A DNA stretch of 64,000 nucleotides from Brevibacterium sanguinis. GTDB taxonomy: Bacteria; Actinomycetota; Actinomycetes; Actinomycetales; Brevibacteriaceae. Shown here piece by piece: positions 39,737 through 61,205 of this stretch; within the stretch, counting starts at the first letter, position 1, and the number at the start of each line of letters is the position of its first letter. The position numbers and the translations under genes were made by a program. The notes under the pieces are model-generated. The model saw only the letters and a program-made list of their open reading frames with translations, made no database searches and was not told the origin of the DNA. The stretch is taken from NCBI RefSeq assembly GCF_003315415.1, contig NZ_QNSB01000004.1:124001-188000 (forward strand), given 5' to 3'.

Positions 39737-39830
39737 CATCGTGTTGTCTGTCGAGCGATCTTCCGATGAGTTCAGAGACAAACTCATCCTCTAGCCTCGA
39801 CTTCGTTAGAATAGATCCAGGTCAAGTAGT
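39737..39830 (+). promoter_or_regulatory. CRISPR leader
   Basis: This 94-bp stretch is AT-richer than its neighbours and directly precedes the first repeat. It carries the inverted repeat GATGAGTT-N8-AACTCATC (39765-39788) and a possible -10 box TAGAAT at 39807. Leader identity is inferred from repeat orientation (5' handle at the right end of the repeat), from perfect repeats on this side and decayed ones at the other end. Confidence 0.75.
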
Positions 39831-42800
39831 GTGCTCCCCGCCTACGCGGGGATGATCCGACGGCGATCAATGCCGTCTGGAATTTCATTAAGTGCTCCCC
39901 GCCTACGCGGGGATGATCCGATGATCCCGCCGTAGGTCTCCCGCTCGATGGGGTGCTCCCCGCCTACGCGGGGATGATCCGGTCACGATCTACCCGGCCG
40001 AGTCGGGTGAGAAGTGCTCCCCGCCTACGCGGGGATGATCCGTCACTCATCGCACTCGCGGCAGACGTCCCGGAGTGCTCCCCGCCTACGCGGGGATGAT
40101 CCCATCCCCGCTGGCAGGGTGATTACACGAGTGACGTGCTCCCCGCCTACGCGGGGATGATCCTTGTCGACCTGTCCGTTTGCCCATACGCTGCCGGTGC
40201 TCCCCGCCTACGCGGGGATGATCCGCCGAGTACCGAAGTCGGTCTATAGAGGCGTATGTGCTCCCCGCCTACGCGGGGATGATCCCTCCAAGTCAATGCC
40301 GGTGGGCGTGGTGATCGTGTGCTCCCCGCCTACGCGGGGATGATCCCGCCATCGCCATGCTGATCTCGTGCGGGGTGAGGTGCTCCCCGCCTACGCGGGG
40401 ATGATCCGAGTAGAACATCGGCACGGCACCGAACGGGCCGGTGCTCCCCGCCTACGCGGGGATGATCCCAACTAGGGTGGCTGCGGAGGCGATGAGGGCT
40501 CGTGCTCCCCGCCTACGCGGGGATGATCCTCCAGAACTCGTCACCCTGAGCGAAGTCGATCGGTGCTCCCCGCCTACGCGGGGATGATCCGTTGATCGCC
40601 GCCACCAGAATCGTGCCCACGATGTGCTCCCCGCCTACGCGGGGATGATCCCCTTGTCTGATGCTGCCCGATGGTGGCAGGCCAGTGCTCCCCGCCTACG
40701 CGGGGATGATCCGCAGGTGTTCGTTTTCACGCTCGGTGGTCTCGCGTGCTCCCCGCCTACGCGGGGATGATCCCCGGGTGTAGACGTACACCAAGCCCCC
40801 GTGGTGGTGCTCCCCGCCTACGCGGGGATGATCCTGCCTCCGCTGACGACATTCAGCTCGCGAAAGAGTGCTCCCCGCCTACGCGGGGATGATCCGAACC
40901 GCCACGGTGCTACGAGGGAAGTGGATTTGTGCTCCCCGCCTACGCGGGGATGATCCGTCCTGGTATCAGCGGGAGAAGTCCAAGGCCGTGTGCTCCCCGC
41001 CTACGCGGGGATGATCCGGACGCAATGAACAACCTCACCGACGACGATCAGTGCTCCCCGCCTACGCGGGGATGATCCCTCGCGGCATTTGCGTTGCACG
41101 TACTCGGCGATGTGCTCCCCGCCTACGCGGGGATGATCCCCGTGGGTGGATGAAGTCGACGTGGTGGACCCGGTGCTCCCCGCCTACGCGGGGATGATCC
41201 CCCTGGCGGGGTGCACGCCGCGGAGAAGCTGATGTGCTCCCCGCCTACGCGGGGATGATCCCACCACATCTCCGCGATGACCTGCTTGTCTCGCGTGCTC
41301 CCCGCCTACGCGGGGATGATCCCAGAAACGGCAACGCCAAATCGAACGAATCGAGGTGCTCCCCGCCTACGCGGGGATGATCCCATCCTTTGCCACGTCG
41401 TCCCCAGATTCTTCGGGTGCTCCCCGCCTACGCGGGGATGATCCGCACAAGCCCATGGAGGTGACGGGGTGACACGAGTGCTCCCCGCCTACGCGGGGAT
41501 GATCCGCGATCCCGTGAGCTATTGCTAGCAACGGAATGGTGCTCCCCGCCTACGCGGGGATGATCCCTGTCGGCTCAACGGCGGAAAGTGGAGAAGCGGG
41601 TGCTCCCCGCCTACGCGGGGATGATCCCTGATGGTAGTTCACCCCGTCACCTCCATCGGCGTGCTCCCCGCCTACGCGGGGATGATCCGTACGCGATCCA
41701 ATGCCAGTGGGAAATGTGGGTGTGCTCCCCGCCTACGCGGGGATGATCCCCGCTCGACACCGGGCCCGCATTCGATGCCGACGTGCTCCCCGCCTACGCG
41801 GGGATGATCCCGAACCCACCACCACCACACAGGAGCACAGCAGGTGCTCCCCGCCTACGCGGGGATGATCCCTGCCACTCGACGACCGTGAATACGGGGT
41901 GCTCGTGCTCCCCGCCTACGCGGGGATGATCCCGATTCTCGCCCGACTGCTTGTCCTGCCACTGCGTGCTCCCCGCCTACGCGGGGATGATCCTAGTTCT
42001 GTGCCATCCACATGTTCTCGAGCATGGTGCTCCCCGCCTACGCGGGGATGATCCGAAAAGCCTCGAAGAATACCGAGCAAACATGATGTGCTCCCCGCCT
42101 ACGCGGGGATGATCCCTCGCAACGCGTGTTGGAGCATCCAACGAATCGGTGCTCCCCGCCTACGCGGGGATGATCCGCGGCGTGCCTTGCTGGTGTCCGG
42201 TCCATGCAGGTGCTCCCCGCCTACGCGGGGATGATCCGCACGGCGATGAGGGCGTTGAGCCGTCCCCCTAGTGCTCCCCGCCTACGCGGGGATGATCCCT
42301 GGCCGCGCTTGAGTTCGGTGGCGATAGTCTGGTGCTCCCCGCCTACGCGGGGATGATCCGGGCTACGGGTCCGGGTGCCGGAACGTCAGGGTGTGCTCCC
42401 CGCCTACGCGGGGATGATCCCCGCGTACTGAGTCGCGTCCGGGTCGATATCGAGTGCTCCCCGCCTACGCGGGGATGATCCGCACCACTGGGTCACAGTG
42501 GAACTGGACAGGCAGTGCTCCCCGCCTACGCGGGGATGATCCCTCCACGGCGAGGGGCGTCTCCCGTCGACGTTCGTGCTCCCCGCCTACGCGGGGATGA
42601 TCCGTGGCGCGCGAACGATCGCGCGATCCGCCGCGCGTGCTCCCCGCCTACGCGGGGATGATCCGTCGAAGCCGCCGAGCGACTCGGAGTAAGCCTCGTG
42701 CTCCCCGCCTACGCGGGGATGATCCGTTCTGACCCACCCACCCGCGCACCACCTCACCGTGCTCCCCGCCTACGCGGGGATGATCCCGTCACCTGGTCCT

Positions 42801-45800
42801 TCTCGCAGTCCCATTTCTCGTGCTCCCCGCCTACGCGGGGATGATCCGGGTCTCCCGGCTGGACCTCGGGATCTGTGTACGTGCTCCCCGCCTACGCGGG
42901 GATGATCCCGCCTTGATCGCCTCCACACGCCCGTGCTCGGGGTGCTCCCCGCCTACGCGGGGATGATCCGCGCGTCGCCCAGAACGTCCACGACCTCAGC
43001 GTGTGCTCCCCGCCTACGCGGGGATGATCCTGGTTCGTCGCGACCCGGACCTCGACGCCCGGGGTGCTCCCCGCCTACGCGGGGATGATCCGATGGACAT
43101 TGTTACCAGACTGTGACCTTGGGCGTGCTCCCCGCCTACGCGGGGATGATCCCAGCCCCTTGCCGATGCGGGGATCAGTCTCGGGGTGCTCCCCGCCTAC
43201 GCGGGGATGATCCGGTGACGATCTACCCGGCCGAGTCGGGTGAGAAGTGCTCCCCGCCTACGCGGGGATGATCCCCCCCCACCGAAGCCCACGCCATCCT
43301 CGAAGACCGTGCTCCCCGCCTACGCGGGGATGATCCCGTGCCGCGCTCGCGGGCTGCGTGAGTCCGTGGGTGCTCCCCGCCTACGCGGGGATGATCCCAC
43401 CTACGACGCCGCGGACCCCGCGCACCGGAAGTGCTCCCCGCCTACGCGGGGATGATCCGACCGCGGGCCACCGTTCCGCGAACGGGATCAAGTGCTCCCC
43501 GCCTACGCGGGGATGATCCCAGCAGCAGATAGTCGGCGAGCGCGGGTCGGACGTGCTCCCCGCCTACGCGGGGATGATCCGAGCCCTGCTGAAGAGCTCC
43601 CCACCCATCAGACGTGCTCCCCGCCTACGCGGGGATGATCCGCCAAAACAGCCGACGTGGAGTTCAAGCACCGAGTGCTCCCCGCCTACGCGGGGATGAT
43701 CCCCCGCCGATCAGATCTCGCTCGGTCAGGTGCTCGTGCTCCCCGCCTACGCGGGGATGATCCCAACCCGCACCCACCATGCCTCAACTGCTATCAGTGC
43801 TCCCCGCCTACGCGGGGATGATCCGCCCATGCTCATCACCGATTCGTCGTGGTCCAGGTGCTCCCCGCCTACGCGGGGATGATCCGTTGTGAGGATACTC
43901 GCCGGTAACATCGGGCAGGTGCTCCCCGCCTACGCGGGGATGATCCTGGGCGGACGAGCTGTGGGTCACCCCGCAGACAGTGCTCCCCGCCTACGCGGGG
44001 ATGATCCCAGCCCATCCCAGCGGACGATGAGCGCACCATGGTGCTCCCCGCCTACGCGGGGATGATCCGGGTGGGGTGCGACGTTCGTCAAGCACACCGG
44101 CGTGCTCCCCGCCTACGCGGGGATGATCCCAGGGGAATCTCCTCATCCGTGAGGTCGTTGCGGTGCTCCCCGCCTACGCGGGGATGATCCGTCCCGCTAC
44201 TTCGGGCAGATCGCCCCGTCGATGTGCTCCCCGCCTACGCGGGGATGATCCCTGGGAGACCCTCGACGATCCCGCCTACGTCATGTGCTCCCCGCCTACG
44301 CGGGGATGATCCGGTCGTCGCCCGTCTCGACGGGGAAGTGGTCAGGTGCTCCCCGCCTACGCGGGGATGATCCGGCGGCTGCTGCTGAGTCGGCGGCGAA
44401 AGCCCAGTGCTCCCCGCCTACGCGGGGATGATCCGCGTCGTGGGCGCCCGTGGGTCTCACCCACTCAGTGCTCCCCGCCTACGCGGGGATGATCCCCCCG
44501 GAGACCTGGTGTTCGACCCCTTCGGAGGGTGCTCCCCGCCTACGCGGGGATGATCCTGGTGGCTCAACGAAACCGCCTGGATACTCATCGTGCTCCCCGC
44601 CTACGCGGGGATGATCCCTGCCCGATGTCGTGGTCACACTCAGTGAGCGTGTGCTCCCCGCCTACGCGGGGATGATCCCGTCGGTGACGATTCATGGAAG
44701 GACAGCGATCAGTGCTCCCCGCCTACGCGGGGATGATCCTGCTCGGCCGCGGTTGGTTCGGGCGGTGCGGGGGTGCTCCCCGCCTACGCGGGGATGATCC
44801 TCCGGGCGGGTCGCCGCCTACTCAACGAATGCAGTGCTCCCCGCCTACGCGGGGATGATCCCTCACCCACCGACTCGGCTTCCACGGCCATGTCGTGCTC
44901 CCCGCCTACGCGGGGATGATCCGCTGCAGCGTTCCACGGTGACGTTGCGGGTGTGGTGCTCCCCGCCTACGCTGGGATGATCCCCCATCCGTCACGGGTG
45001 GGATCATGGTGCCCACGTGCTCCCCGCCTACGCGGGGATGATCCTCGGCGTTCCAGCGGTACCAGCGGCCAGCGAGGGTGCTCCCCGCCTACGCGGGGAT
45101 GATCCGGGTTACGCCGACGAACCGGTGACCAAGACCGTGTGCTCCCCGCCTACGCGGGGATGATCCCACGAACTCCCCGAACGCGGCCACCGACAACGAG
45201 TGCTCCCCGCCTACGCGGGGATGATCCTCAGTGCCATCCCACACCGAGAGGAGGTTCCTCGTGCTCCCCGCCTACGCGGGGATGATCCGAAGAACCTCCA
45301 GGAGGACGCGAGGAAGTCTCGGTGCTCCCCGCCTACGCGGGGATGATCCCCCGCCAGCTCGTCCACGACCTCGAGGCCGACGGTGCTCCCCGCCTACGCG
45401 GGGATGATCCCACGGCAAGCCACCCCGCGATGCTCGCGAGACGGTGCTCCCCGCCTACGCGGGGATGATCCCGCTTCCGGGCGATCCGACTTCGCAGGAG
45501 TGAAGTGCTCCCCGCCTACGCGGGGATGATCCTGCTACGTATCCACGGAACCAAACCCTGCAGGGGTGCTCCCCGCCTACGCGGGGATGATCCCCCATCC
45601 GTCACGGGTGGGAGCATGGTGCCCACGTGCTCCCCGCCTACGCGGGGATGATCCCACGTCGCGCGGGGTGTCGTGCTTGTTGACGCCGTGCTCCCCGCCT
45701 ACGCGGGGATGATCCGTTCTTCCGCAGGTCCTGCTCGTCACCCTTGATGTGCTCCCCGCCTACGCGGGGATGATCCCTGCGGCGACACCCAACGCGACGA

Positions 45801-47730
45801 CGCCGGCCGGTGCTCCCCGCCTACGCGGGGATGATCCACGTTGCATTTCCGCTTCCGCGACCGTGAGGGTGTGCTCCCCGCCTACGCGGGGATGATCCCT
45901 CTGGCATCCACTTATCGAAGAACCGTTGCTCGTGCTCCCCGCCTACGCGGGGATGATCCTGTTCAATCACATATTGATAATTGAATGTTCAAGTGCTCCC
46001 CGCCTACGCGGGAATGATCCCAGGTAGCCGAGAGGGTGAGTCGCGGTCGCCTTGTGCTCCCCGCCTACGCGGGGATGATCCGGCGGTCGGGTTCTTCTCG
46101 CTCGAGATGGACGAGTGCTCCCCGCCTACTCGGGGATGATCCCGTCACGGGCATCACCCAGCAGGCGCGCATCACGGTGCTCCCCGCCTACGCGGGGATG
46201 ATCCGTTCGTCCGCACCGTCTGGTCGGCGAGGTCCGTGTGCTCCCCGCCTACGCGGGGATGATCCCTGACTGCATCGTCGAGAAGCGCTCGCAGATCGGT
46301 GCTCCCCGCCTACGCGGGGATGATCCGCACTCCGCTGGCTCGACGAGCACCCAGACAAGGTGCTCCCCGCCTACGCGGGGATGATCCGATCTCGAGGTGG
46401 GACTTGGGCACCTGATGGGGGTGCTCCCCGCCTACGCGGGGATGATCCGCGTGCTGAGATCACCGACGCGAAGGAGCGGAAGTGCTCCCCGCCTACGCGG
46501 GGATGATCCGTCGATGAGCTGGCGGGCCGCGATCCGCTCCACCGTGCTCCCCGCCTGCGCGGGGATGATCCCGTCTGCCACGGCCCGTCCGTCGCTGCGG
46601 CGTGGTGCTCCCCGCCTGCGCGGGGATGATCCGGACGGCGAGGAGTGGATCGACGGCACCGCCACGTGCTCCCCGCCTGCGCGGGGATGATCCCAAGCAG
46701 AAGTCGTGGATCTCAGTGCGCAGATGGTGCTCCCCGCCTGCGCGGGGATGATCCCTCGGTGGCCCCGTTCTTCCGCACCACCTGCTTGTGCTCCCCGCCT
46801 GCGCGGGGATGATCCCTCGCCAGCCGTCGCCCAGATGGGTATGTTGTCGTGCTCCCCGCCTGCGCGGGGATGATCCCTCACTGAGAAGCGCCGCAACGGT
46901 GAGATCAAGGTGCTCCCCGCCTGCGCGGGGATGATCCGTGTACCACGATCACCGATAGTTTGAACCTGTGGTGCTCCCCGCCTGCGCGGGGATGATCCGT
47001 GTACCACGATCACCGATAGTTTGAACCTGTGGTGCTCCCCGCCTGCGCGGGGATGATCCGCAGATGCACACCGAGGCGAAAGTCGCATATCGGTGCTCCC
47101 CGCCTGCGCGGGGATGATCCGTGGATCGACATTCCCAGCGAGCAACGCGATCGGTGCTCCCCGCCTGCGCGGGGATGATCCGACCGTCATCAATGGGATG
47201 AAACGGGCCGCGCGGTGCTCCCCGCCTGCGTGGGGATGATCCCATGCGGTCGCCGGTGATGTTGACGTGGATGGGGTGCTCCCCGCCTGCGCGGGGATGA
47301 TCCCTCACCGCCCCCCGCCGAGCCGCAGCCTACGACGTGCTCCCCGCCTGCGCGGGGATGATCCCACGATCCCCTGTGGTCCAACGGAAAGACGCTCGTG
47401 CTCCCCGCCTGCGCGGGGATGATCCGCCCAGACCATGCACGTCTGCCCGCTGCAGTTCGTGCTCCCCGCCTGCGCGGGGATGATCCCGGGCGCGGGTCGT
47501 ACCAGAAAGGGTTTGGTGGGTGCTCCCCGCCTGCGCGGGGATGATCCCACGGTTGTAGCTACGATCACGTCGATCGGGGAGTGCTCCCCGCCTGCGCGGG
47601 GATGATCCCAGACGGCCACGCCGGCGCTCTTGGGGTACTCGGTGCTCCCCGCCTGCGCGGGGATGATCCGAAGTGATACTTCCCCGTCTTGACGATGTTG
47701 CTGTGCTCCCCGCCTGCCCGGGGATGACGC
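39831..47730 (+). CRISPR. Type I-E CRISPR array, 130 repeats and 129 spacers
   Basis: The 28-bp repeat begins GTGCTCCCCGC, has a four-base loop CTAC and ends GCGGGGATGATCC; spacers are 33 nt, three are 34 (in units 57, 103 and 110). Repeat n starts at 39831 + 61(n-1), shifted by the three extra bases, and the last starts at 47703, giving 130 repeats. From repeat 111 (46544) to the end the loop is CTGC. Single-base variants occur in repeats 85, 102, 104 and near 47215; the last repeat is degenerate (CCTGCCCGGGG, ending GATGACGC). The stem and ATGATCC handle show transcription to the right. Confidence 0.98.
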
Positions 47731-47732
47731 AA

Positions 47733-47762
47733 CCGTCCTCCCCGCACCAGCGGGGAGGACGG
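47733..47762. terminator. Hairpin closing the CRISPR array
   Basis: CCGTCCTCCCCGC pairs perfectly with GCGGGGAGGACGG (13 bp, loop ACCA), two bases after the last repeat. It separates the array from a convergent permease gene and may terminate both transcripts. It resembles the CRISPR repeat. Confidence 0.7.
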
Positions 47763-47804
47763 AATGACCTGGTCGCCGAGCTGATTTTCAGACGGGCAGT
47801 CGCC

Positions 47805-49298
47805 TCACCGCGCATCCACCTCGGCGGGGCGATGAAGGCGGCTGTGCCTCTTCGAGTATCCGAAGTAGACGATGAAACCGAGCAGCAGCCAGACGAGGAA
47901 GCGGATCCAGGTGTCGAGGTTGAGATTGAGCATGAGGTAGAAGCAGATCACCGCCGAGCCGATCGGCAGCACCGGCACGAACGGCACCTTGAAGGGGCGC
48001 GGCAGGTCGGGGCGGGTCTTGCGGAGCACGATGACCCCGATCGAGACGAGGACGAATGCTGACAGCGTGCCGATGTTGACGAGCTCGGCCAGAGTCGACA
48101 GCGGCACGAACGTCGCGATCACCGCGATGATGATTCCGGTGATGATCGTGAATCGGTAGGGAGTGCCGAACCTCGGGTTCGTCTTCGCCAGCCAGGTCGG
48201 AAGGAGTCCGTCGCGCGCCATGGAGAACCCGACGCGCGTCTGGCCCATGAACAGGATCATGCAGACGACGATGAGCCCGATGCAGGCGCCGATCGCGATG
48301 AGATCCGCCATCACAGGCATTCCGACGCTGACGAACGCGGTCGCCAACGGAGCACCGTCCTCCGGGTCGATCTCCCGGTAGTCCTGCATTCCGGTGATGA
48401 CGAGAGAGACCGCAATGTAAAGTGCGGTGACGATCGCCAGGGAGCCGAAGATGCCGATCGGCAGATTGCGCTGCGGATTCCGCGTCTCCTCAGCGGTGGT
48501 GGCGACGACGTCGAACCCGATGAAGGCGAAGAACACCATGGCCGCCGCAGCGAAGATGCCGCCGACGCCGAAGACACTGGGTTCGAGACCGAAGATTCCT
48601 TGGATGATCGGCAGGTGCATCATCGAGCCCCCGGTGTCGGCCGGCGCCTCGGCGGGAGGAACGAAGGGAACCCAGTTCGCGACCTTGACGAAGAAGAGAC
48701 CCGCGACGATGACGACGAGGACGACGACGACCTTGAGAATGGTCACGACCATGTTGATGCGGCTGGAGAGCTTGATGCCGCTGACGAGCACGATGGTCAG
48801 ACCGAGAACGAGAAGGCCTGCCGGCAGGTTCATCACCCCGTCCTCGGCGGTCGCGATCGCTTCGGGAATCGCCAGCGGAGTCCCCTCGAGGACGACGGCG
48901 AGGTACTGGCTGAACGAGGTCGCCAACGCGGCGGCGCCGACGGTGAACTCGAGGATGAGATCCCACCCGATGATCCACGCCAGCAGCTCGCCCATCGTGG
49001 CGAAGGTGAACGTATAAGCGCTTCCTGCCACAGGAACGGTTGAGGCGAACTCGGCATAGCAGACTGCCGCGAGCGCGCACGCGAGACCTGCGATGAGGAA
49101 CGACAGCGCGATGCCGGGTCCGGCATTGGTCGCCGCCGCGTGCCCCGTGAGCACGAAGATCCCCGCACCGATGCAGACACCGATGCCGAAGACGATGAGG
49201 TCGAAGGCGCCGAGGTTCTTCTTGAGCTGATGCTCGGGATCCTCGGTGTCCCTGATGCTCTGTTCGATTGACTTGGTGCGCTTCCATTCGCCGGCCAT
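47805..49298 (-). CDS. APC-superfamily amino-acid permease (CAT type)
   Basis: This is a 497-residue permease of the cationic amino-acid transporter-like group: [18 protein letters not shown] in segment 1, [17 protein letters not shown], and [25 protein letters not shown]. About 12-13 membrane segments. The start is ATG 49298 ([13 protein letters not shown]) with GAGGAG. It is convergent with the array and separates it from the formaldehyde genes. The substrate is not assignable. Confidence 0.92.
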
Positions 49299-49564
49299 GG
49301 CGTCTCCTCGATATCGCAGTGTACGGGTCAACCTCCATTGCGGTGGGTCTACGGTACAACGGAGTCGACTGCACATTCAGCGACGTATCCGAATTGAAAC
49401 CGAAACGATCGCCTCTCGCCACCCGTCCAATCCACATGTTCTCCTGTTCGACTCACGTTCCGGACGTCCGCTGGTCCCTCCGTGCTCACGTGGTTAGGGT
49501 GGGGCTTGTCATCAACGTATCAGGGCGCAACGGCCGCGGTCAGCGCTTCAAGCAAGGAGACACA

Positions 49565-50656
49565 ATGCCACAGACTGTCAAAGGCGTCATCTCCAGGAGC
49601 AAGGGTGCTCCGGTGGAACTCACGAACATCGTCATCCCCGACCCGGGCCCGGGCGAGGTCATCGTCGATGTCAAGTCGTGCGGGGTCTGCCACACGGACT
49701 TCCACTACCGCGAGGGTGGGATCAGCGACGACTATCCGTTCCTGCTCGGCCATGAGTCGGCCGGTGTCGTCTCGGAGATCGGCGAGGGCGTGACCAATGT
49801 CGAGGTCGGCGACTTCGTCATCCTCAACTGGCGAGCCATCTGCGGCGACTGCCGGGCGTGCAAGCGCGGCGAACCGTGGTACTGCTTCGCCACCCACAAC
49901 GCCTCGCAGAAGATGACCCTGGAGGACGGCACCGAACTGACCGCTGCGCTGGGCATCGGCTCGTTCGCTGAGAAGACCCTCGTCGCCGCCGGTCAGTGCA
50001 CCATCGTCGACGAGGCCGATCCCGCCGTCGTCGGCCTGCTCGGCTGCGGCATCATGGCGGGCATCGGCGCCGCGATCAACACCGGCCAGGTCAGTCGCGG
50101 GAAGTCCACCGCCGTCATCGGCTGCGGCGGCGTCGGCTGTGCGGCGATCGCCGGCGCGGCGCTGGCCGGATCGGGAACGATCATCGCCGTCGACATCGAC
50201 GACAAGAAGCTCGAATGGGCGAAGGACCTCGGCGCAACGCACACCATCAACTCCCGTGGTCTCGACGAGGACGGCGTCGTCGCGGCGATCCAGGAGCTCA
50301 CCGGCGGGTTCGGCGCCGACGTCGTCATCGACGCTGTCGGTCGCCCCGAGACGTGGCGCCAGGCCTTCTACGGCCGCGATCTCGCCGGCACCGTCGTGCT
50401 CGTCGGAGTGCCGACCCCGGAGATGGAGCTCAGCGTCCCACTGCTCGACGTGTTCGGCCGCGGCGGCAGCCTCAAGTCCTCCTGGTACGGCGACTGCCTG
50501 CCGGCCCGGGACTTCCCGATGCTCGTCGACCTCTACACGCAGGGTCGCCTGCCGCTCGAGAAGTTCGTCTCCGAGAGGATCGGAATCGGCGATGTCGAGG
50601 AGGCCTTCGACAAGATGGGCCGCGGTGAGGTTCTGCGTTCGGTGGTGATGTTCTGA
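49565..50656 (+). CDS. mscR: S-(hydroxymethyl)mycothiol dehydrogenase
   Basis: This is a zinc- and NAD-dependent alcohol dehydrogenase of the mycothiol-dependent formaldehyde dehydrogenase group; it oxidises the formaldehyde-mycothiol adduct. Catalytic zinc ligands are Cys in SCGVCHTDF and His in GHESAG; the structural cysteines are in [15 protein letters not shown]. The cofactor loop is [13 protein letters not shown]. The 363-residue length, [12 protein letters not shown] and the downstream MBL gene match the Mycobacterium mscR arrangement. Start ATG 49565 follows AAGGAG. Confidence 0.93.
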
Positions 50657-51330
50657 TGGCTGCGGCAATCGAGCACCTGGTCACCAAGGGAACGTTCTCG
50701 CTCGACGGTGGAACCTGGGACGTCGACAACAACGTGTGGATCGTCGGCAACGACTCCGAGGTCATCGTCATCGACCCGGCCCATGACCCCGAGGCGATCG
50801 CCGAGGCGGTCAACGGCCGTGAGGTCAAGGCGATCCTCCTCACGCACGGGCACGACGATCACGTCGCCGCGGTTCGCGATTTCGCACACCGCGTCGGCAA
50901 CCCTCCCGTCCACCTCAACCCCGAGGACCGTGTCCTCTGGGACATGACCTACGAGGACTATCAGCCGGACAGGGAGATCACCGACGGCGACACGTTCAGC
51001 ATCGACAGTGTCCGGCTGAAGGCGCTGCACACCCCCGGGCACTCCCCCGGTTCGACGTGCTTCTTCATCGAGACGGGACTTCCGGTTCCCGACTCCGCCG
51101 GAGCCGGTGCGGCCGTCGGCCCGGTCCTGTTCTCGGGAGACACCCTGTTCAACGGCGGTCCCGGCGCGACCGGCCGGTCGTACTCGAGCTTCGAGACGAT
51201 CATCGAGTCGATCCGCGACACGCTGTTCACTCTGCCCGAGGCGACGATCGTCCTCACCGGCCACGGTGATGCGACGTCGATCGGTGCCGAGAAGCCGAAC
51301 CTCGACGAGTGGGTGAAGCGGGGGCACTGA
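50656..51330 (+). CDS. Metallo-beta-lactamase-fold hydrolase paired with mscR
   Basis: This is a 224-residue MBL-fold protein. The zinc motif is LLTHGHDDHVAAV, with the further ligands in HTPGHSPGS, FSGDTLFNGG and LTGHGD. It has the same relation to mscR as the MBL gene next to the mycobacterial homologue, and probably hydrolyses the mycothiol thioester formed by MscR or a similar conjugate. Its ATG overlaps the mscR stop in TGATG. Confidence 0.92.
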   Translation: MAAAIEHLVTKGTFSLDGGTWDVDNNVWIVGNDSEVIVIDPAHDPEAIAEAVNGREVKAILLTHGHDDHVAAVRDFAHRVGNPPVHLNPEDRVLWDMTYEDYQPDREITDGDTFSIDSVRLKALHTPGHSPGSTCFFIETGLPVPDSAGAGAAVGPVLFSGDTLFNGGPGATGRSYSSFETIIESIRDTLFTLPEATIVLTGHGDATSIGAEKPNLDEWVKRGH

Positions 51331-51383
51331 GAAGTGAGATGAGGCCTCGGACCTCACTCCCGGCATACGCCGAGTTCAAGTAA

Positions 51384-51424
51384 AGGGCTGCTGAGACCGC
51401 AGAACATGCGGGCTCAGCAGCCCT
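51384..51424 (+). terminator. Terminator of the mscR operon
   Basis: AGGGCTGCTGAG pairs with CTCAGCAGCCCT (12 bp), with an inner CCGC-N7-GCGG hairpin. There is no U-tract. The 387-bp gap 51331-51717 also holds a repeat-like hairpin, a possible 33-codon ORF and the cas promoter. Confidence 0.75.
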
Positions 51425-51603
51425 CACCTCACCCTACAAAGGTAGGGAAGACACCCAAACATCCACTGCTTCGCAATCGAAATCCGGGTCACCCCGAGCG
51501 CATCGGGAAAGGACACTCGTGAAACCGACTGCCACCGTGTCCGTGCCGCAGTCTGATGTTTCTCTCAATCGAGGGTATCGTCGACTTCCAACAACATCCG
51601 CCG

Positions 51604-51631
51604 TTGACTTCTCTGGATAATCGGCTAGATT
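51604..51631 (+). promoter_or_regulatory. Candidate promoter of the cas operon
   Basis: TTGACT (51604-51609), 16 bp, then TAGATT (51626-51631). It is the best housekeeping-type promoter in the AT-richer gap before cas3 and would start transcription near 51638, about 80 nt before the chosen cas3 ATG. Confidence 0.6.
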
Positions 51632-51717
51632 GATTTCACGCACTACGAATGTGTGCTACGCAATCTAAATCGTTGAGTCTTCCGTGCCCTCACCCGGACT
51701 GGAGACCAGAAGGGTCA

Positions 51718-54700
51718 ATGATGACCGACACGAAGTCTCTGGCCGACCTCCTCTGGGCCAAGACGCTCCGGGATCGCGATACCCAGGAACTCATCGGCTG
51801 GTTGCCCCTTCTCGTGCACCTCCGGGACACCGCAGAGGTCGCGACCCGGCTTTATCACCACCGCAAGTCCCGGCAACAGCTCTCGGTCATCGAGTCGATG
51901 ATTCCCGCTGAGATTGTTCCCGACGCTCTGATCCGGTTTCTTGCCTCTCTGCACGATGTCGGCAAGGCCGGCCCCAACTTCCAGGCGCAGGATTCCGAGC
52001 GGGCCGCCCGACTCCATGAGTCCTCCCATCGGCCCGACAGCGAGGCCCCGGTGCTCAACGTCCGCCAGTGTCAGGAGATCGGCAGCCAGGCTGAATTCCC
52101 GCACTCCCTGGCTTCGGAAGTCATCGTGGGACGAGTGCTCGCTTCGGAATTCGGTATGGTCCACCAACCGAAGTCGTCAATAGCATCCAAGTTCGGACCG
52201 TCGACTTCGTCACCGGTCCCGCTTCCTGTCGTCCATCAGCTGGCCAGCGTCCTCGGCGCCCATCATGGAATGACCGCGTATGGCGCGATGGCCAAACGTC
52301 GCATCTGCGCTCCTCGTTGGCCTCTGGAACTCGGGATGCGGGAATCGGCCTGGCCTGCGGTCCAGAGGGACATCGCCTCGCGACTCATCGCCGAGTCCGG
52401 CGTGGACTTCTCCTCCGACTTGTGGAAAGACCCAGGGCTGCACTTCGACCGAGGAGTGCTCTCGCTTCTGTCCAGCCTCGTCATCGAGGCGGACTGGATC
52501 GCATCGAATCACGACCTCTTCCCGCTCATCGCCCCCGACGAGGACATCCGCCACTGCAGGCCGTCATCCGAACGCGCCGAGGCTGCCTGGAACGCCCTCG
52601 GGCTGCCTGGCCTCTGGACACCATGCCCCACACCTGACATCGCAGCGGCACTGGGGTCGCGGTTCGCTCTCCCCGAAGCCGCGCGACCCCGTCCCGGACA
52701 GGCTGCGGCCCATGCTGCGACGACCGGACTCGTCGAGCCGGCCATCGTCCTTCTCGAGGATGAGACCGGCCGGGGCAAGACCGAAGCGGGGCTGTTGGCC
52801 GCTGAGAACCTGGCCCATGCGACCGGAGCCTCCGGAGTTCTCTTCTGCCTTCCGACTCAAGCGACGACCAACGGCATGTTCCCACGGTACCTGAGCTGGA
52901 TCGAAAGGCTGGACAGCGAGGGGCCCGATGACGACGTGACGACCGCCTTGGCGCACGGCAAGGCGAATCTCAACGAGGACCGCCGAAAGCTTCGCCGGCT
53001 GGATCGACCGGGACAGCCTCAGCGGCTGCGCATCTCCGATCAAGGAGGTGGTGACCTCACCGGAGTCGAACTCGGCAATGGGCTCCCCCCGGACTCACAG
53101 GTCCACGACGAATACCGTTCTCGTCGACATGGCTCTGCCCCGACCCGCCTCAGGCCGGGCAACCACACCTGGCTGAGCGGCAGGAAGAAGAGGCTGCAGG
53201 CCGACTTCGTCATCGGCACCGTCGACCAATTGCTCATGGCCGGCCTTCGAGCCCGGCATCTCATGCTCAGACACAGCGGCCTCGCGGACAAAGTCATCGT
53301 CATCGATGAAGTTCACGCATCGGATTCGACTATGCGTGTGTTCCTCCGCAAGGCGCTCGTCTGGTTGGGGCGATGGGGTGTTCCGGTCGTGGTCCTCACA
53401 GCGACGCTGCCGCCCGAACAGAAGCACCACCTCATCGAGGCCTACCGACGTGGTCTCGACCTGCGCGCCTCCTCGGGGACCGACCACCAGCACCTCACTC
53501 GGCCGGCCGACTCCCGGGAACCGGATGCAGCGGATGCACCGGATCCCCCGGAAACCGAGGCCGTCTACCCTGCGCTGACGGTCGCCACAGCCGGATCGAC
53601 GACCGTCATCCCCATCGAGGCAGGCGATTCGAAGTCAGTCACGCTCGACGAACTCGACGACGATGACACGGCACTCATCGACGCGATCACCAGGTACGGT
53701 TCGGAAGGCGGGTGCATCGCCGTCATCCGCAATTCGGTGCGCCGAGTCCAGGCGACCGCCGAGGCGCTGCGAAACGCGTTCGGATTCGACGCGGTCACTG
53801 TGGCCCATGCGCGATTCACGGCATCGGACCGCGCAGAGCGGGACCGCTCACTGCTCGAGGCATTCGGGAAGGACAGCTCCAAGCGGCCGGACTTCTCCAT
53901 CGTGGTGGCGACATCGGTCATCGAGCAGAGCCTGGACATCGACTTCGATCTCATGTTCACGGATCTCTGCCCCGTCGACCTCCTCATCCAGCGGATCGGC
54001 CGCGTGCACCGACACTCGGGGAGGGCGCGACCGGGTCCCGTGACGCAGGCCCGCTGCATCATCACCCGCCCCGGCGGGGACGGAGACGAGGGACCGAACT
54101 TTCCCTCCGATTCGGAGCACATCTACGGCCGGCATGTCCTGCTGCGGACCGCAGCCGCCCTCCGAGTCATCTGCCGCGCCGGCACTCTCACGTCACCCGA
54201 CGACATCGCATCGCTCGTGCACACGGTCTACAGCGGCCAGAGACTCGGTCCGGATGAGTGGTGGCCCGCGATGGACGCCGCCAAGAAAGCGGCTCGGCTG
54301 AAGGAAGCCACTGCGCAGGATCTGGCCGAACGGTGGGCCACCGAGCCCGACCGACCGCTTCAGGGGCTCGATGACTGGCTCAATCTCAACGACGGCGATC
54401 CCGAGGACTCCGACCCCTACGAACGGGAACGCGGCAGCGTGCGCGACGGCTCCGAATCGATCGAAGTCCTGCTGGTCCTCAGCGACGGAACAGGGTGGCG
54501 AACGCTCGACTGGCTCCCTCGCATGGGCGGCGTGGACATACCGACGACGGCTGAGGTCCCCTGGCACGTCGCCGAGGCGGTCGCCAACTCCTCGATCCGC
54601 CTCCCCTTCGCCATGTGCCGCGGTTTCGATGGGGACAAGGTGATCGAGGAACTCGAGAAGTTCGGGGTAGCAGCCTGGCAGAGATCTCCCCTGCTGCGCG

Positions 54701-54882
54701 GGCAGCTGGTGCTCCCGATGACTGCCGAGTCGGACGTCGCCGAAAGCTCCCGCCATCACGGGGAAGACGCCCCACGATTCTCTGCTCGAGTCGGAGACTG
54801 GCACGTGGTCTACGACCGCGCCATGGGGCTCGTCGCCGAGAGACGCAAGGACTCCGCACACACAGAAGAGATTCGCGACTGA
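51718..54882 (+). CDS. cas3: CRISPR-associated helicase-nuclease Cas3 (type I-E)
   Basis: This is a 1054-residue effector nuclease recruited by Cascade to unwind and degrade target DNA. The N-terminal HD domain has H34, H79-D80 (LASLHDVGK) and HHG further on (LGAHHGMTAYG). The superfamily-2 helicase has Walker A EDETGRGKTEAG, DEVH in VIVIDEVHASDST, SAT-like motif III TATLPPEQK and motif VI QRIGRVHRH. The start is ATG 51718, with AGAAGG ahead; an in-frame ATG at 51649 would add 23 unsupported residues. It is the first gene of the eight-gene operon. Confidence 0.95.
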   Translation: MMTDTKSLADLLWAKTLRDRDTQELIGWLPLLVHLRDTAEVATRLYHHRKSRQQLSVIESMIPAEIVPDALIRFLASLHDVGKAGPNFQAQDSERAARLHESSHRPDSEAPVLNVRQCQEIGSQAEFPHSLASEVIVGRVLASEFGMVHQPKSSIASKFGPSTSSPVPLPVVHQLASVLGAHHGMTAYGAMAKRRICAPRWPLELGMRESAWPAVQRDIASRLIAESGVDFSSDLWKDPGLHFDRGVLSLLSSLVIEADWIASNHDLFPLIAPDEDIRHCRPSSERAEAAWNALGLPGLWTPCPTPDIAAALGSRFALPEAARPRPGQAAAHAATTGLVEPAIVLLEDETGRGKTEAGLLAAENLAHATGASGVLFCLPTQATTNGMFPRYLSWIERLDSEGPDDDVTTALAHGKANLNEDRRKLRRLDRPGQPQRLRISDQGGGDLTGVELGNGLPPDSQVHDEYRSRRHGSAPTRLRPGNHTWLSGRKKRLQADFVIGTVDQLLMAGLRARHLMLRHSGLADKVIVIDEVHASDSTMRVFLRKALVWLGRWGVPVVVLTATLPPEQKHHLIEAYRRGLDLRASSGTDHQHLTRPADSREPDAADAPDPPETEAVYPALTVATAGSTTVIPIEAGDSKSVTLDELDDDDTALIDAITRYGSEGGCIAVIRNSVRRVQATAEALRNAFGFDAVTVAHARFTASDRAERDRSLLEAFGKDSSKRPDFSIVVATSVIEQSLDIDFDLMFTDLCPVDLLIQRIGRVHRHSGRARPGPVTQARCIITRPGGDGDEGPNFPSDSEHIYGRHVLLRTAAALRVICRAGTLTSPDDIASLVHTVYSGQRLGPDEWWPAMDAAKKAARLKEATAQDLAERWATEPDRPLQGLDDWLNLNDGDPEDSDPYERERGSVRDGSESIEVLLVLSDGTGWRTLDWLPRMGGVDIPTTAEVPWHVAEAVANSSIRLPFAMCRGFDGDKVIEELEKFGVAAWQRSPLLRGQLVLPMTAESDVAESSRHHGEDAPRFSARVGDWHVVYDRAMGLVAERRKDSAHTEEIRD

Positions 54883-54923: not shown

Positions 54924-56603
54924 ATGATGAGCACGACAATGGCGTCACCCTCCTCGACCGAGGAGGTGAAATCCGAAGAGTCTCCCTACTTCAATCTCAT
55001 CGACGAGCGGTGGATTCCGGTGCTGATGCTCGATGGGAGTGAGACGACGCTGTCGCTCACTCAGACCATCGAATATGCACCGGACATCCGCCAGTTGCAG
55101 GGCGAACTGCCGACGACACGAGCGGCTCTGCTCCGGCTGCTCGTGGCGATACTCGCTCGTGGGATCGGGCTTCCTCGCGACCCCGACGAATGGAGTTCAA
55201 AGCTGGGCGACTGGCAGTCGGTGTCCGACTCCGTCACGTCCTATCTCCACCGGCATCACGATCGCTTCTGGCTGCGTCATGCTTCCACGCCGTTCTTCCA
55301 GGTGGCGGATCTGGGTCCCGCCTCGGACGAAACGAAGGACCTCGGCGCATTCGTCGCCGACTTCCCCGCCAACGTCCAGGCGTTCACCCAGCGCGGTCCT
55401 CGCAGTCTCGACCGCATGTCTCCGGCAGAGGCGACGAGGTGGCTCATCCACGCCCATGCCTACGATCCCTCGGGCATCAAGACCCCGGACCGTCGGGATC
55501 CTCGGACCAAAGGCGGAAAGGTCTATCCCCTGGGTACGGGATGGACGGGCAAAGGAGAGGTGCTCATCGCCGGGGGCAACAGTCTCGAACTCACGCTGAT
55601 CCTCAACATCGTCGCCCCCGACGGCCAACGGATCATCAGCGGCGACGAGGACCGGCCGCCCTGGGAACGACCGCACCCCGGACCCCTCGAGGAGTTCGAC
55701 GCACCGGCGATGCCCCAGGGGTTCATCCAGACCTACACGTGGCAGTCACGGCGCATCCGGCTGCTCTTCGACGGCTGCGACGTCACCCGGGTCGTCCTCT
55801 GCTACGGCGACCCGCTGAGCGAACAGAACCGGCAGGCATTCGACCCGATGATGACCTGGCGCTACAGCAAACCTCAGTCCACCAAGTTCGGAACGACTGT
55901 GTTCATGCCGGGGATGGTCGACCCCTCGAAGTCGGTGTGGCGCAGCATGTCGGCATGGCTGCCCACAGGTGCGCAGTCCATCGTCAACGGTGCTCGCCAG
56001 CACCTCGAACCAGGCGTCCTCGAGTGGATCGGACAGCTTTACAAGCATGACAAACTCTCCATCGGATTCCGTCCCAACATCGAACTGGTCGGAGTCCAGT
56101 ACGGCAACATGTCCGCCACCTATGCCGAAGTCGTCAACGATTCGCTTCGGGTGCCGACGTTCCTTCTCCAGGACGACGCCGTCGATGCCGCGGAAACCGT
56201 CATCCACGCCATCGACGACGCGGATACGGTCGCATGGTACCTCGGCACCTTCGCGGTGAATCTCGCCAGGGCCCGCGGCGTCGAGGACGCCGAGGCGTTC
56301 AGGGAGGAAGCGAAGGACACGGCATTCAGGGACTTCGGTCTCATCTTCGCCGCCTGGCTGGACAGCCTCCGCGACGACTCCCGCTGGCACACCGCCCGCG
56401 GTCTGTGGCAGAAGGCACTGCGTGATTCAGCGGTGTCGATCGCCCGCCGCCTCGCCCATGAAGCGGGTACGGCTTCCTACCTCGGCCGCATCGTCGACGT
56501 CGAGAACGGCACTTGGCTGACGACCGACATCGCCCTCGGCTATCTGCACAAGGGCCTGAGGAAAACCCTTTCCATCGCCTACCAGGAGGACACCGATGCC
56601 TGA
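54924..56603 (+). CDS. casA: Cascade large subunit Cse1/CasA (Cas8e)
   Basis: This is a 559-residue PAM-recognition and Cas3-recruiting subunit of type I-E Cascade. The N-terminal pattern FNLIDERWIPV followed by TQTIEYAPDIRQLQGELPTTRAALLRLLVA is diagnostic, as are FFQVADLG and TKFGTTVFMPG. ATG 54924 (or 54927) follows AAAGGA. It ends 8 bp inside the next gene. Confidence 0.95.
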   Translation: MMSTTMASPSSTEEVKSEESPYFNLIDERWIPVLMLDGSETTLSLTQTIEYAPDIRQLQGELPTTRAALLRLLVAILARGIGLPRDPDEWSSKLGDWQSVSDSVTSYLHRHHDRFWLRHASTPFFQVADLGPASDETKDLGAFVADFPANVQAFTQRGPRSLDRMSPAEATRWLIHAHAYDPSGIKTPDRRDPRTKGGKVYPLGTGWTGKGEVLIAGGNSLELTLILNIVAPDGQRIISGDEDRPPWERPHPGPLEEFDAPAMPQGFIQTYTWQSRRIRLLFDGCDVTRVVLCYGDPLSEQNRQAFDPMMTWRYSKPQSTKFGTTVFMPGMVDPSKSVWRSMSAWLPTGAQSIVNGARQHLEPGVLEWIGQLYKHDKLSIGFRPNIELVGVQYGNMSATYAEVVNDSLRVPTFLLQDDAVDAAETVIHAIDDADTVAWYLGTFAVNLARARGVEDAEAFREEAKDTAFRDFGLIFAAWLDSLRDDSRWHTARGLWQKALRDSAVSIARRLAHEAGTASYLGRIVDVENGTWLTTDIALGYLHKGLRKTLSIAYQEDTDA

Positions 56604-57240
56604 TGACAGCACCCGCACGGACACGCGACTGACACCCAGTTCCTTCGTCATCCCGAAGGTGAGGATTCTCCAGGAGGGGCACGAGAAGGACAGGGCAGCT
56701 GCGCGGTCGGTCCTCGCCCAGCTGAGGCGCGCCTCGGCGGGCGATCCCGGGACCGCATGGGAGATCAGCGAGTACCTGCTCCCGGAGAGGGAGTACTTCG
56801 ACTCGGCGATGAGACCCGGGTCGCCTCGATCCGAATCCGCGGACTATCTCGAGACCGCGATCCACGTGGCGATGACGACGTATGCGCAGCTCCAGCAGGG
56901 CAAGGATTCCGGCATGCACGTCAAGGATCGCACCCTCGGAGAGGCGGCAAGGATGCTCGCGGCGCATCGCGACGAGCCCATGGACCGGGGCAAGGTCTGG
57001 GAGCGTCTGGCCAAACTCGCACAGTCCCAGACGATGTCGAGTCTGCGGTGGCAGCTGCGCGGATTCGTCGGTCTTCTCCATCGGCGGAGCATCGGCCTCG
57101 ACATCGGCCGACTTGCCGACGACGTCTTCTACTGGCAGTTCCCGGCATCGAGGCCGAACGTCCAGCGCTCATGGAGCCGCCAGTTCTTCCACAATCCCCG
57201 GCCGGAAGCCGATGCTACCGCGACCGACTCCACCACCTGA
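56596..57240 (+). CDS. casB: Cascade small subunit Cse2/CasB (Cas11)
   Basis: This is a 214-residue helical subunit that forms the dimeric belly of Cascade and stabilises the R-loop. The Cse2 pattern AAARSVLAQLRRASAGDPG near residue 35, GEAARML, and the C-terminal VFYWQFPAS with basic residues support it. It overlaps casA by 8 bp. Confidence 0.92.
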   Translation: MPDDSTRTDTRLTPSSFVIPKVRILQEGHEKDRAAARSVLAQLRRASAGDPGTAWEISEYLLPEREYFDSAMRPGSPRSESADYLETAIHVAMTTYAQLQQGKDSGMHVKDRTLGEAARMLAAHRDEPMDRGKVWERLAKLAQSQTMSSLRWQLRGFVGLLHRRSIGLDIGRLADDVFYWQFPASRPNVQRSWSRQFFHNPRPEADATATDSTT

Positions 57241-57260
57241 ACGAATCCCAAGGAGCAATC

Positions 57261-58415
57261 ATGACCACCACCTATTTCGATGTCCATGTCCTCCAGTCCG
57301 TTCCGCCGAGCAACGTCAACCGAGACGACACCGGCGCACCGAAGACCGCCGTCTATGGCGGAGTCCGCCGTGCCAGGGTGTCCTCGCAGGCATGGAAACG
57401 CGCGACACGAGAAGCATTCAAGGATCTTGTCGACGCCTCCAAACTGGGGTCTCGCACCCAGCGAGTGATCGAACAGATCGCCGCAGAGATCGTCACGATC
57501 GACGACTCGCTCGCCAATGAGGCCGAAGCCATCGCCGAGAAGGTTCTCGCGGCGGTCGGGATCAAACTCGACAAGCCGAAGTCGAAGTCGAAGGATCCCG
57601 ACGAGGCAGCGGGAACCCGGACGGAGTCTGCCTATCTCGTCTTCTTCAGCCATCTGCAGATCGTCAAGGCAGCGAAGCAGGCGATCGAGGACCATCGGGA
57701 GGGCAAGCCCAAATTCGACAAGAAGGTCTACAAGGAGATCCTCCAGCAGGACAACTCGCTCGACATCGCGCTCTTCGGTCGAATGATCGCCGACCTCACC
57801 GACCTCGGCGTCGACGCCTCTGCTCAGGTCGCGCATGCTCTGTCGGTCCACGCAGTTGAGAGCGAAGCCGACTTCTACACGGCTGTCGACGACTACAAGG
57901 TGGACGACCCCGACCGCGACGCCGGGGCGGGCATGCTCGGCACGGTCGAATTCAACTCCTCGACCCTCTACCGCTACGCAACGGTGAATGTCGACCAACT
58001 GGCGGAGAACCTCGGCGATGCCGCGGCCGCCGAAGAGGCCCTCACCGCCTTTGCACGCGGCTTCGTGCTGTCGATGCCATCCGGCAAGGTCAACAGCTTC
58101 GGAAACACGACGGTCCCGGCGGCCGTGATGTACTCGGTCCGTTCCGATCGCCCGATCAACTTCGTCGAAGCCTTCGAAGATCCCGTGATCCACAACGACG
58201 GCTATGTTCGTTCGGCGGTGGAACGCCTGGTCGACTATGCGACCGAGATCGACCAGGTCTACTCACCCGCACACGGCTACTGGACGGCCGGCGTCGGTGC
58301 GCGCGCGGAGAGACTCGACGTCCTCGCCCTGCGCAGTTCGGTCGATTCAGCCGTCGAGGGGTCCGTCAGAGCAGCCCTGTCGGCTCACCTCGGCCAAGTC
58401 AAGGAGGACGCGTGA
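57261..58415 (+). CDS. casC: Cascade backbone subunit Cas7e (CasC/Cse4)
   Basis: This is a 384-residue subunit of which six copies coat the crRNA. It starts with YFDVHVLQSVPPSNVNRDDTG and has KTAVYGGVRRARVSSQAWKRATR, the typical RAMP first strand and glycine segment; FVLSMPSGKVNSFGNTT lies near the end. ATG 57261 follows AAGGAG. The end overlaps cas5e in GTGA. Confidence 0.95.
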   Translation: MTTTYFDVHVLQSVPPSNVNRDDTGAPKTAVYGGVRRARVSSQAWKRATREAFKDLVDASKLGSRTQRVIEQIAAEIVTIDDSLANEAEAIAEKVLAAVGIKLDKPKSKSKDPDEAAGTRTESAYLVFFSHLQIVKAAKQAIEDHREGKPKFDKKVYKEILQQDNSLDIALFGRMIADLTDLGVDASAQVAHALSVHAVESEADFYTAVDDYKVDDPDRDAGAGMLGTVEFNSSTLYRYATVNVDQLAENLGDAAAAEEALTAFARGFVLSMPSGKVNSFGNTTVPAAVMYSVRSDRPINFVEAFEDPVIHNDGYVRSAVERLVDYATEIDQVYSPAHGYWTAGVGARAERLDVLALRSSVDSAVEGSVRAALSAHLGQVKEDA

Positions 58416-59152
58416 GCACACTGCTCCTGCGGCTCGCGGGTCCGATGCAGTCGTGGGGCATGAGGGGCCGATTCACTCGCAGGACGACCGAGCTGCAACC
58501 GACGAAGAGCGGAATCGTCGGCCTCGTGGCTGCGGCGATGGGACGGCGTCGCACCGACCCCATCGAAGACCTGGCGAACCTGCGCTTCGGGGTGAGGGTC
58601 GATCAGCCCGGCCGACTCATGCGAGACTTCCAGACCGCCAGTCGCCCGGGAGTGACAGCACCGCTGTCCTACCGCTACTTCCTCAGCGACGCGGTCTTCC
58701 TCGCCGCCCTCGAGGGACCGGACGAGCTCATCGACGGCATCGACGACGCGCTGCAGGCTCCGAGCTTTCCACTGTACCTGGGGCGGCGCGCGTTTCCCCC
58801 GGCAGGGAAGGTCAGCCTCGGCGTGCAGAGGACTTCGATGCCCGAGGTGCTGTCCGAAACTCCATGGAGCGCAAGCCGATTCGTCATGAAGGCGACCAAG
58901 AACCCCGTCGTCTACGTGCGGATCGTCAGGGATGCCGAGCCCGGAGAGGAAGCATCCGACGCATTCGAGGACGTTCCCCTGAGCTTCGATCCGAACCGAC
59001 GGCAGTTCGGGATGCGGTCGGTCTGCGAGTTGCGGGTGAAGCTGTCCAACCCCTGTGCGGCTGACGACGATGCTCAGCGCGCCGGCGGAGCGTTCGACTC
59101 TCATGACCCGTTCGGGTTCCTAGGAGGTCCCAGTGTTTCTCAGCAGAATTGA
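58412..59152 (+). CDS. casD: Cascade subunit Cas5e (CasD)
   Basis: This is a 246-residue RAMP protein that binds the 5' handle of the crRNA. The opening LLLRLAGPMQSWGMRGRFTRRTTELQPTKSG is diagnostic of Cas5e, as is YLGRRAFPP. The GTG start overlaps the cas7e stop; it ends 20 bp inside cas6e. Confidence 0.95.
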   Translation: MSTLLLRLAGPMQSWGMRGRFTRRTTELQPTKSGIVGLVAAAMGRRRTDPIEDLANLRFGVRVDQPGRLMRDFQTASRPGVTAPLSYRYFLSDAVFLAALEGPDELIDGIDDALQAPSFPLYLGRRAFPPAGKVSLGVQRTSMPEVLSETPWSASRFVMKATKNPVVYVRIVRDAEPGEEASDAFEDVPLSFDPNRRQFGMRSVCELRVKLSNPCAADDDAQRAGGAFDSHDPFGFLGGPSVSQQN

Positions 59153-59873
59153 GCTGAATGCCGCTCGTCGAGGGACGAGGCACCTGCTCGGATCTCCCCA
59201 GAAGCTTCATGCGGCGGTCGAAGCCTCCTTCCCGAGCGGGGATCCGCAGGGCCAGGACGGCGGTTCGCGGCGCCTCTGGAGGCTGGACACGGGCAGCCCG
59301 AATCCCCGTCTGTACGTCGTCAGTGCGACTGCCCCCGACTTCACCCACCTCGAAGAGCAGGCGGGGTGGCCCACTCAGCCCAATTGGGCAGTCGCGGACT
59401 ACTCGCCACTGCTCGACGACCTCACGACCGATCAGTTCTGGGAGTTCCGCCTGGCCGCCAATCCCGTCCACGCGGTGAGACCTGAGGACGGAGGCCGCAG
59501 CAAGCGATTCGCCCATGTGACGGTCGCACAGCAGGAGGAGTGGCTCGCTCGCCGCGCACAGCACCTCGGCGTGGCCTTCGACGTCGGGGTCGAGGTCGGG
59601 ACAGATGATCCGACAGACGACGAGGACTCGGCATCCGTGAGTTTTCGCGTCGAGGAGCGCCGGCTGATGAAGTTCACACGAAAGAATCACTCCGTGACGA
59701 TCCGCAAAGTCAGATACGACGGTGTTCTTCGTGTCACCGACCCGGGGCGGCTGCGCAGCGCTCTCGTCAACGGGATCGGCCCGGCGAAGGCGTACGGATG
59801 CGGGCTGCTCACTCTCGTTCCTGTCGCAGATGGAAGCGGATCGCGGTTCCTGTCGAGCGCTGATCGCGGCTGA
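59133..59873 (+). CDS. casE: crRNA-processing endoribonuclease Cas6e (CasE)
   Basis: This is a 246-residue RAMP nuclease that cuts pre-crRNA below the repeat stem and stays bound to the 3' hairpin. It starts FLSRIELNAARRGTRHLLGSPQKLHAAVEASF with the catalytic-region histidines, has FRLAANPV, and ends with the glycine-rich RNA loop GIGPAKAYGCGLLTL. The GTG start is inside cas5e. Confidence 0.93.
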   Translation: MFLSRIELNAARRGTRHLLGSPQKLHAAVEASFPSGDPQGQDGGSRRLWRLDTGSPNPRLYVVSATAPDFTHLEEQAGWPTQPNWAVADYSPLLDDLTTDQFWEFRLAANPVHAVRPEDGGRSKRFAHVTVAQQEEWLARRAQHLGVAFDVGVEVGTDDPTDDEDSASVSFRVEERRLMKFTRKNHSVTIRKVRYDGVLRVTDPGRLRSALVNGIGPAKAYGCGLLTLVPVADGSGSRFLSSADRG

Positions 59874-60831: not shown

Positions 60832-61205
60832 TGGTTGTCATCGTCGTCGCCGCCTGTCCACCCGGCCTGCGGGGAGAGCTCACCCGCTGGCTCTTGGAGA
60901 TCGCTCCCGGAACGTTCGTCGGGCGCCTGTCGAAAAGGGTCCGTGAGCGGGTGTGGCAACGGGTCGTCGCGGGCGTCGGGTCCGGGAGGGCGACCATGAT
61001 CTGGACCGCTCGAAACGAGCAGGGTCTGGAATTCCAGACCCATGGCGACCCGTGGAAGGTCACCGACTTCGACGGTCTCAAGCTGATCACTCGTCCTCAT
61101 CCTGAGCAGACCCAGCTGAGGCGCCGGGGTGAGAAGCTCGCCGAGTCGGAGAACGGCGGGCTGCAGCAGGGCTGGAGCATGGCCTCGCGAAATCGTCGCC
61201 GCTGA
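60831..61205 (+). CDS. cas2: Spacer-acquisition protein Cas2e
   Basis: This is a 124-residue protein forming the central dimer of the Cas1-Cas2 integrase. The type I-E pattern is clear: MVVIVVAACPPGLRGELTRWL, APGTFVGRLSKRVRERVW and MIWTARNEQGLEFQTHG. A basic, Gln-rich tail extends past the core. ATG 60831 overlaps the cas1 stop in TGATG. It is the last cas gene, and no array follows it. Confidence 0.95.
   Translation: MVVIVVAACPPGLRGELTRWLLEIAPGTFVGRLSKRVRERVWQRVVAGVGSGRATMIWTARNEQGLEFQTHGDPWKVTDFDGLKLITRPHPEQTQLRRRGEKLAESENGGLQQGWSMASRNRRR

Follow-up and report, generated by a model that had tools for sequence, protein, structure and literature searches.

Two spacers of a type I-E CRISPR array in Brevibacterium sanguinis very probably represent separate captures of two alleles of a single site, flanked by AAG, in the gene for the major tail protein of AGM1-like phages. 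The array lies within a 64,000-nucleotide stretch of contig NZ_QNSB01000004.1 (the window), to which the unlabeled coordinates below refer; the array and the cas genes described here are on the plus strand. Spacer 3 (39981–40013) and spacer 56 (43214–43246) are each 33 nt long and share 32 of 33 bases, differing only at base 4, which is C in spacer 3 and G in spacer 56, exactly as the initial annotation of this DNA had described. The pair scored 30, whereas no pair scored above 11 in two shuffles of the spacers (8256 pairs each, both orientations), which excludes chance similarity. The two spacers stand some 53 spacers apart, and the neighbors of spacer 3 are not repeated near spacer 56. This near identity, the unshared neighbors, and the occurrence of both bases in the tail gene of related phages all speak for two captures.

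The array (39831–47730) comprises 130 repeats of 28 nt and 129 spacers of 33–34 nt. The cas genes consist of cas3 (51649–54882), recognized by Cas3 helicase and HD domain models, together with cse1, cse2, cas7 and cas5 (54924–59152), cas6e (59133–59873), and cas1e and cas2e (59929–61205). All eight are open reading frames recognized by models: cse1, cse2, cas7, cas5, cas6e, cas1e and cas2e each exceeded the curated cut-offs of I-E-specific models, and cas3 passed the Cas3 core and HD models while falling below the cut-off of the whole-length PRK09694 model. Both this gene content and the AA-type PAM described below identify the locus as type I-E. We found no published account of this array in the accessible portion of the open-licence literature.

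The leader is on the left of the array. The last bases of the segment preceding repeat 1 (39770–39830) are conserved, in similar form, before the first repeats of other Brevibacterium arrays (those of genomes G001 and G009), and the right-most repeat, at the far end, is degenerate. Spacer 3 is therefore newer than spacer 56, in agreement with its proposed leader-side position. The leader lies at the array end distant from the cas genes, and approximately 4 kb (47731–51648), including a permease gene and others, separates the old array end from cas3. Base 14 of the repeat is G instead of A from position 46544 through to the old end at 47730, a switch that marks two historical parts of the array. 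Spacer 101 (45960–45992) is AT-rich (TGTTCAATCACATATTG...), unlike the remaining spacers, and may originate in a different kind of element. In addition, 13 array pieces matched a short stretch of Saccharomonospora phage PIS 136 (JX006077.1:15672–15885), perhaps repeat-like DNA in the phage.

The PAM was apparent from the spacer matches in phages and prophages. Across all spacers, we obtained 43 matches at ≤7 mismatches, compared to 0 in each of two controls, so these matches are not due to chance; AA directly preceded 26 of the 43. Base 1 of the spacers is C, G or T, with A in 1 of 129. In the type I-E system of Vibrio cholerae, as described in the part of that report available to us, spacers are also 33 nt long and their first base is captured from the PAM (PMC7677007), although it is a pyrimidine there, whereas here it may be C, G or T. 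Since AA precedes most of the sites, base 1 is almost never A, and V. cholerae I-E behaves likewise, we took spacer base 1 as the third PAM base, which makes base 4 seed base 3 on the E. coli scale. With the seed given as bases 1–5, 7 and 8 (PMC5071653, in the section consulted), the variable position falls inside the I-E seed, as had been claimed, with its number shifted by the PAM-derived base.

A homologous site for spacers 3 and 56 was identified in a prophage of genome G028. It has 6 mismatches to spacer 56, carries an AAG PAM, and lies inside the gene of a 169-residue protein identified as the major tail protein both with PHROGs and through the annotation of AGM1. Relatives of this protein were present in 78 phage records, including 32 Brevibacterium phages (among which the sequence was read for AGM1 only), and in five of 57 genus genomes; none of these five genomes gave an I-E Cas1 match. 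The homologous site was found in seven distinct tail-gene relatives, six of which have AA directly before it. These six differ from the spacers at 6–9 bases, with the nearest sites at 6, and carry C at base 4 in five cases and G in one. The AGM1 group of Brevibacterium aurantiacum phages has in common with the inferred target the major tail protein gene and, within it, a homologous site with an AAG PAM, but AGM1 itself is mismatched to spacer 3 at 8 of 33 bases. When read in the tail-gene frame, both spacers encode VTIYPAESGE, with the base 4 difference turning GTG into GTC, both valine codons. There are 24 possible silent single changes in the site, of which three fall in the seed, all at base 4. 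Direct observation covers the pair and the order of its members, the gene family in which the homologous site lies, the PAM at that site, and the presence of both bases in it.

Besides the array itself, no match to spacers 3 and 56 within 3 mismatches was present in 57 genus, 60 family and 396 order genomes. A degenerate VTIYPAESGE pattern and two 20-base cores yielded no exact protospacer in viral contigs. A looser pattern returned AGM1, one relative and one chance match with 16 mismatches; blastn of spacer 3 against phages and of spacer 56 against plasmids produced partial chance matches only, and the tail protein had no tblastn match in plasmids. The initial annotation had looked to matching protospacers with each allele next to a PAM as support for escape from the older spacer. 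None was found within 3 mismatches; homologous AAG-flanked sites, at 6–9 mismatches, carried C in five cases and G in one.

Further spacers match the same group of phages. Spacer 2 (39920–39952) has an AA-flanked match with 5 mismatches in the G028 and G042 prophages that carry the spacer 3/56 site, approximately 3 kb from that site and on the other strand, and spacer 47 (42665–42697) matches AGM1-like prophages approximately 0.8 kb from it. Spacer 88 (45167–45199) gave a peptide-level match within the tail protein gene, with 3 of 10 residues differing, a level at which the control matched too, making this assignment a weak case among the matches listed. At the peptide level, only matches with 1–2 differences are solid (11 versus 0 in the control), as 3 differences gave 62 versus 23 and 4 differences 540 versus 275. 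Spacers 103 and 119 of G022 and spacer 34 of G050 also match AGM1-like prophages (loci L039, L056, L057, L059 and L060), the G050 match falling at the beginning of the gene for the tail protein. AGM1-like phages therefore seem to challenge several I-E hosts.

In the two-capture explanation, spacer 56 would have been acquired from the GTG allele and spacer 3, later, from the GTC allele, the two differing by a silent change at valine. Spacer 56 would pair poorly with the C allele, at seed base 3, and spacer 3 would restore full pairing. We infer that AGM1-like phages would be the exact targets and that the seed change would weaken spacer 56. Against this explanation, neither spacer has an exact target in the collections searched, the nearest sites being 6 bases off.

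The array contains a second one-base pair, spacers 85 (44984–45016, T at base 21) and 95 (45594–45626, G at base 21). Here the single difference lies outside the seed, and the array therefore re-samples a site without a seed change; a peptide-pattern search for the target of this pair in viral contigs gave 0 matches. Spacers 117 (46938–46970) and 118 (46999–47031) are identical neighbors, and spacers 27 (41445–41477) and 30 (41628–41660) share a 22-base overlap on opposite strands with a single difference, looking as if taken from one phage region. Six other genus genomes (421 spacers compared) contained two non-adjacent single repeats, spacers 15/66 of G022 (array loci L132/L133) and 37/44 of G024 (L136/L137), both identical, as well as a copied block of four in G024 (spacers 10–13/32–35). 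Over the seven genomes, the four non-adjacent single-spacer repeats thus comprise one with a seed change, one with a non-seed change and two identical pairs, a distribution that does not require escape, yet is compatible with it. Random re-sampling would be expected to produce about 1.3 same-site pairs (0.4–3.3 by assumption, as the estimate depends on guessed pool sizes), and two were seen.

The strain also carries a resident prophage (G000:C3, loci L033–L035) with integrase, helicase, terminase, portal and tape measure genes. Spacer 31 (41689–41721) has an exact, AAG-flanked match in this prophage (L033:19491–19523), within a RecE-like exonuclease gene. Because this self-match is exact and the cas genes seem intact, the prophage may encode an anti-CRISPR, or interference may be inactive; a PHROGs scan of 10 ORFs from one stretch turned up no anti-CRISPR name. 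Eleven spacers match the prophage at ≤4 mismatches, spacer 31 exactly and ten imperfectly, in a search that scored five candidate places per genome, so that other self-matches may exist. Each of the ten imperfect matches has a change in the AA, at spacer base 1 or within the seed. Of the 11 sites, 9 have lost the AA or carry a seed change (6.1 expected, P = 0.057), rising to 10 of 11 when base 1 was also counted (6.5 expected, P = 0.020). The seed mismatches numbered 10 (5.5 expected with codon phase kept, P = 0.025), and base 4 alone differed in 6 of the 11 sites (1.36 expected with codon phase kept, P = 0.0004). Across all 17 prophage sites at ≤7 mismatches, base 4 differed in 8 (3.3 expected, P = 0.004), whereas seed changes of any kind showed no excess (11 versus 9.2 expected, P = 0.24). 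In other phages and prophages, base 4 differed in 6 of 34 sites, with 5.9 expected. These base-4 statistics were obtained by phase-preserving permutation, as codon positions taken from the longest open frame proved unreliable, and the test was conceived after the data had been seen. The prophage changes at base 4 could not be polarized, as the sole close relative, a record whose portal protein is identical, is presumably the same prophage. Of the two best resident-prophage matches in other hosts, that of G022 spacer 71 has lost the AA and that of G050 spacer 15 is changed at base 3; among four further resident matches, two lack the AA, one is changed at base 3, and that of G050 spacer 91 shows neither. 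These matches fit evasion through the PAM or seed, but the base-4 excess itself was not replicated.

Two histories, both special cases of the two-capture explanation, could have produced the pair. The initial annotation proposed re-immunization after seed escape, in which spacer 56 stopped G-allele phages, a mutant with a silent G-to-C change in the seed evaded it, and the mutant site was then taken up as spacer 3. The cas type, the age order, the seed position, the AAG-flanked phage site and the presence of C and G in relatives are all in line with this proposal, but no exact protospacer was found in the collections searched, and we regard the escape history as plausible, though short of even odds. 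The other history, that phages with C or G at the wobble base circulate and the array sampled each at a different time, falls just short of probable in our assessment and fits the data about as well. Favoring escape, silent changes of the tail gene within the seed are possible at base 4 alone, and silent drift would fall in the seed in about 1 of 8 cases, whereas an escape change would do so nearly always; the same proportion weighs against standing variation. The resident prophage, moreover, differs from near-matching spacers mainly at the PAM and seed, above all at base 4, an excess absent from other phages, although the post hoc nature of the test tempers this argument. Circulating variants, in turn, are suggested by the occurrence of both bases in relatives with an intact PAM, and base 4 varies in genomes without an I-E Cas1 match, that is, where no such I-E system acts; it is also often a third codon base, at which neutral variation is common. 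The C of spacer 3 is the common state in relatives (5 of 6), with G in the minority, a pattern more suggestive of standing variation than of a recent mutation, though relatives at 6–9 mismatches are too distant to polarize which base is derived. Escape also has to accommodate the 85/95 pair, changed outside the seed, and the seed change in only one of four non-adjacent repeats, with the two other Brevibacterium pairs identical. Chance predicts about one same-site pair, and re-sampling at the observed rate is what standing variation would lead one to expect. The exact match of spacer 31 to the resident prophage further argues against escape, since interference may be blocked or off. Conversely, the cell presumably already held spacer 56 when spacer 3 was acquired, which would favor phages with a changed seed.

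Both histories presuppose that the spacers entered the array separately. Arrays do copy units, as the identical neighbors 117/118 and the copied block of G024 show, and the identical non-adjacent repeats of other arrays could be copies. For spacers 3 and 56, however, copying of one spacer within the array followed by point mutation is improbable: spacer 56 has none of the neighbors of spacer 3 in its vicinity, and the two bases coincide with both phage alleles. The repeats, furthermore, show 0 changes in 1596 bases over repeats 1–57 and 3 in 3052 over repeats 1–109, from which about 0.065 changes would be expected in two spacers. An assembly or base-calling error in one of the copies is more improbable still, as each copy has unique neighbors and each base gives a valid phage codon allele, even though the genome is a draft of 23 contigs.

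A published precedent for the escape history comes from the type I-C system of Legionella pneumophila ST222, which carries spacer pairs against the element LME-1 (Rao et al, 2016; PMC5071653). According to the portion of that report available to us, the two spacers of a pair differ in age and target overlapping sites of one element, as here; the older spacer is mismatched to LME-1 at the PAM or seed, whereas the newer one matches, and the authors suggest escape followed by natural priming. In Legionella, the targeted element has been identified and is matched by the newer spacer, whereas in this type I-E array no exact target was found. Another related case is primed adaptation of the kind described by Nicholson, Fineran and colleagues, in which point mutants of the PAM or protospacer trigger the uptake of new spacers (PMC5059440). 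As far as the accessible text describes it, such uptake draws on a variety of new sites close to the primed one and mostly on defined strands, whereas here the very same site was retaken; the position of the neighboring spacer 2 match in relatives, at a distance and on the other strand, is likewise unlike that pattern.

The relation between PAM and codon position bears on base 4 more generally. Of the 1846 AAB protospacers in AGM1 genes, 1039 place base 4 at the third codon position; changes at base 4 are silent in 40% of cases, compared to 14–20% at the other seed bases. Silent escape is therefore easiest at base 4, and neutral variation is commonest there too, so that this evidence cuts both ways for the 3/56 pair; the prophage permutation allows for it. 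Speculatively, and we consider this unlikely, an AA-starting PAM might place the I-E protospacers of GC-rich phages in codon register and make base 4 the cheapest escape route, the 3/56 pair and the prophage excess being its traces. In that reading, base 4 would usually fall on the third position of a codon and could change silently two to three times as often as any other seed base. If so, the PAM-codon register would predict where the phages of GC-rich hosts should escape I-E immunity, a prediction countable in existing spacer and phage collections. Were escape to have driven the 3/56 pair, the array would document, in nature, how type I-E immunity was brought up to date at a single site through one silent base.
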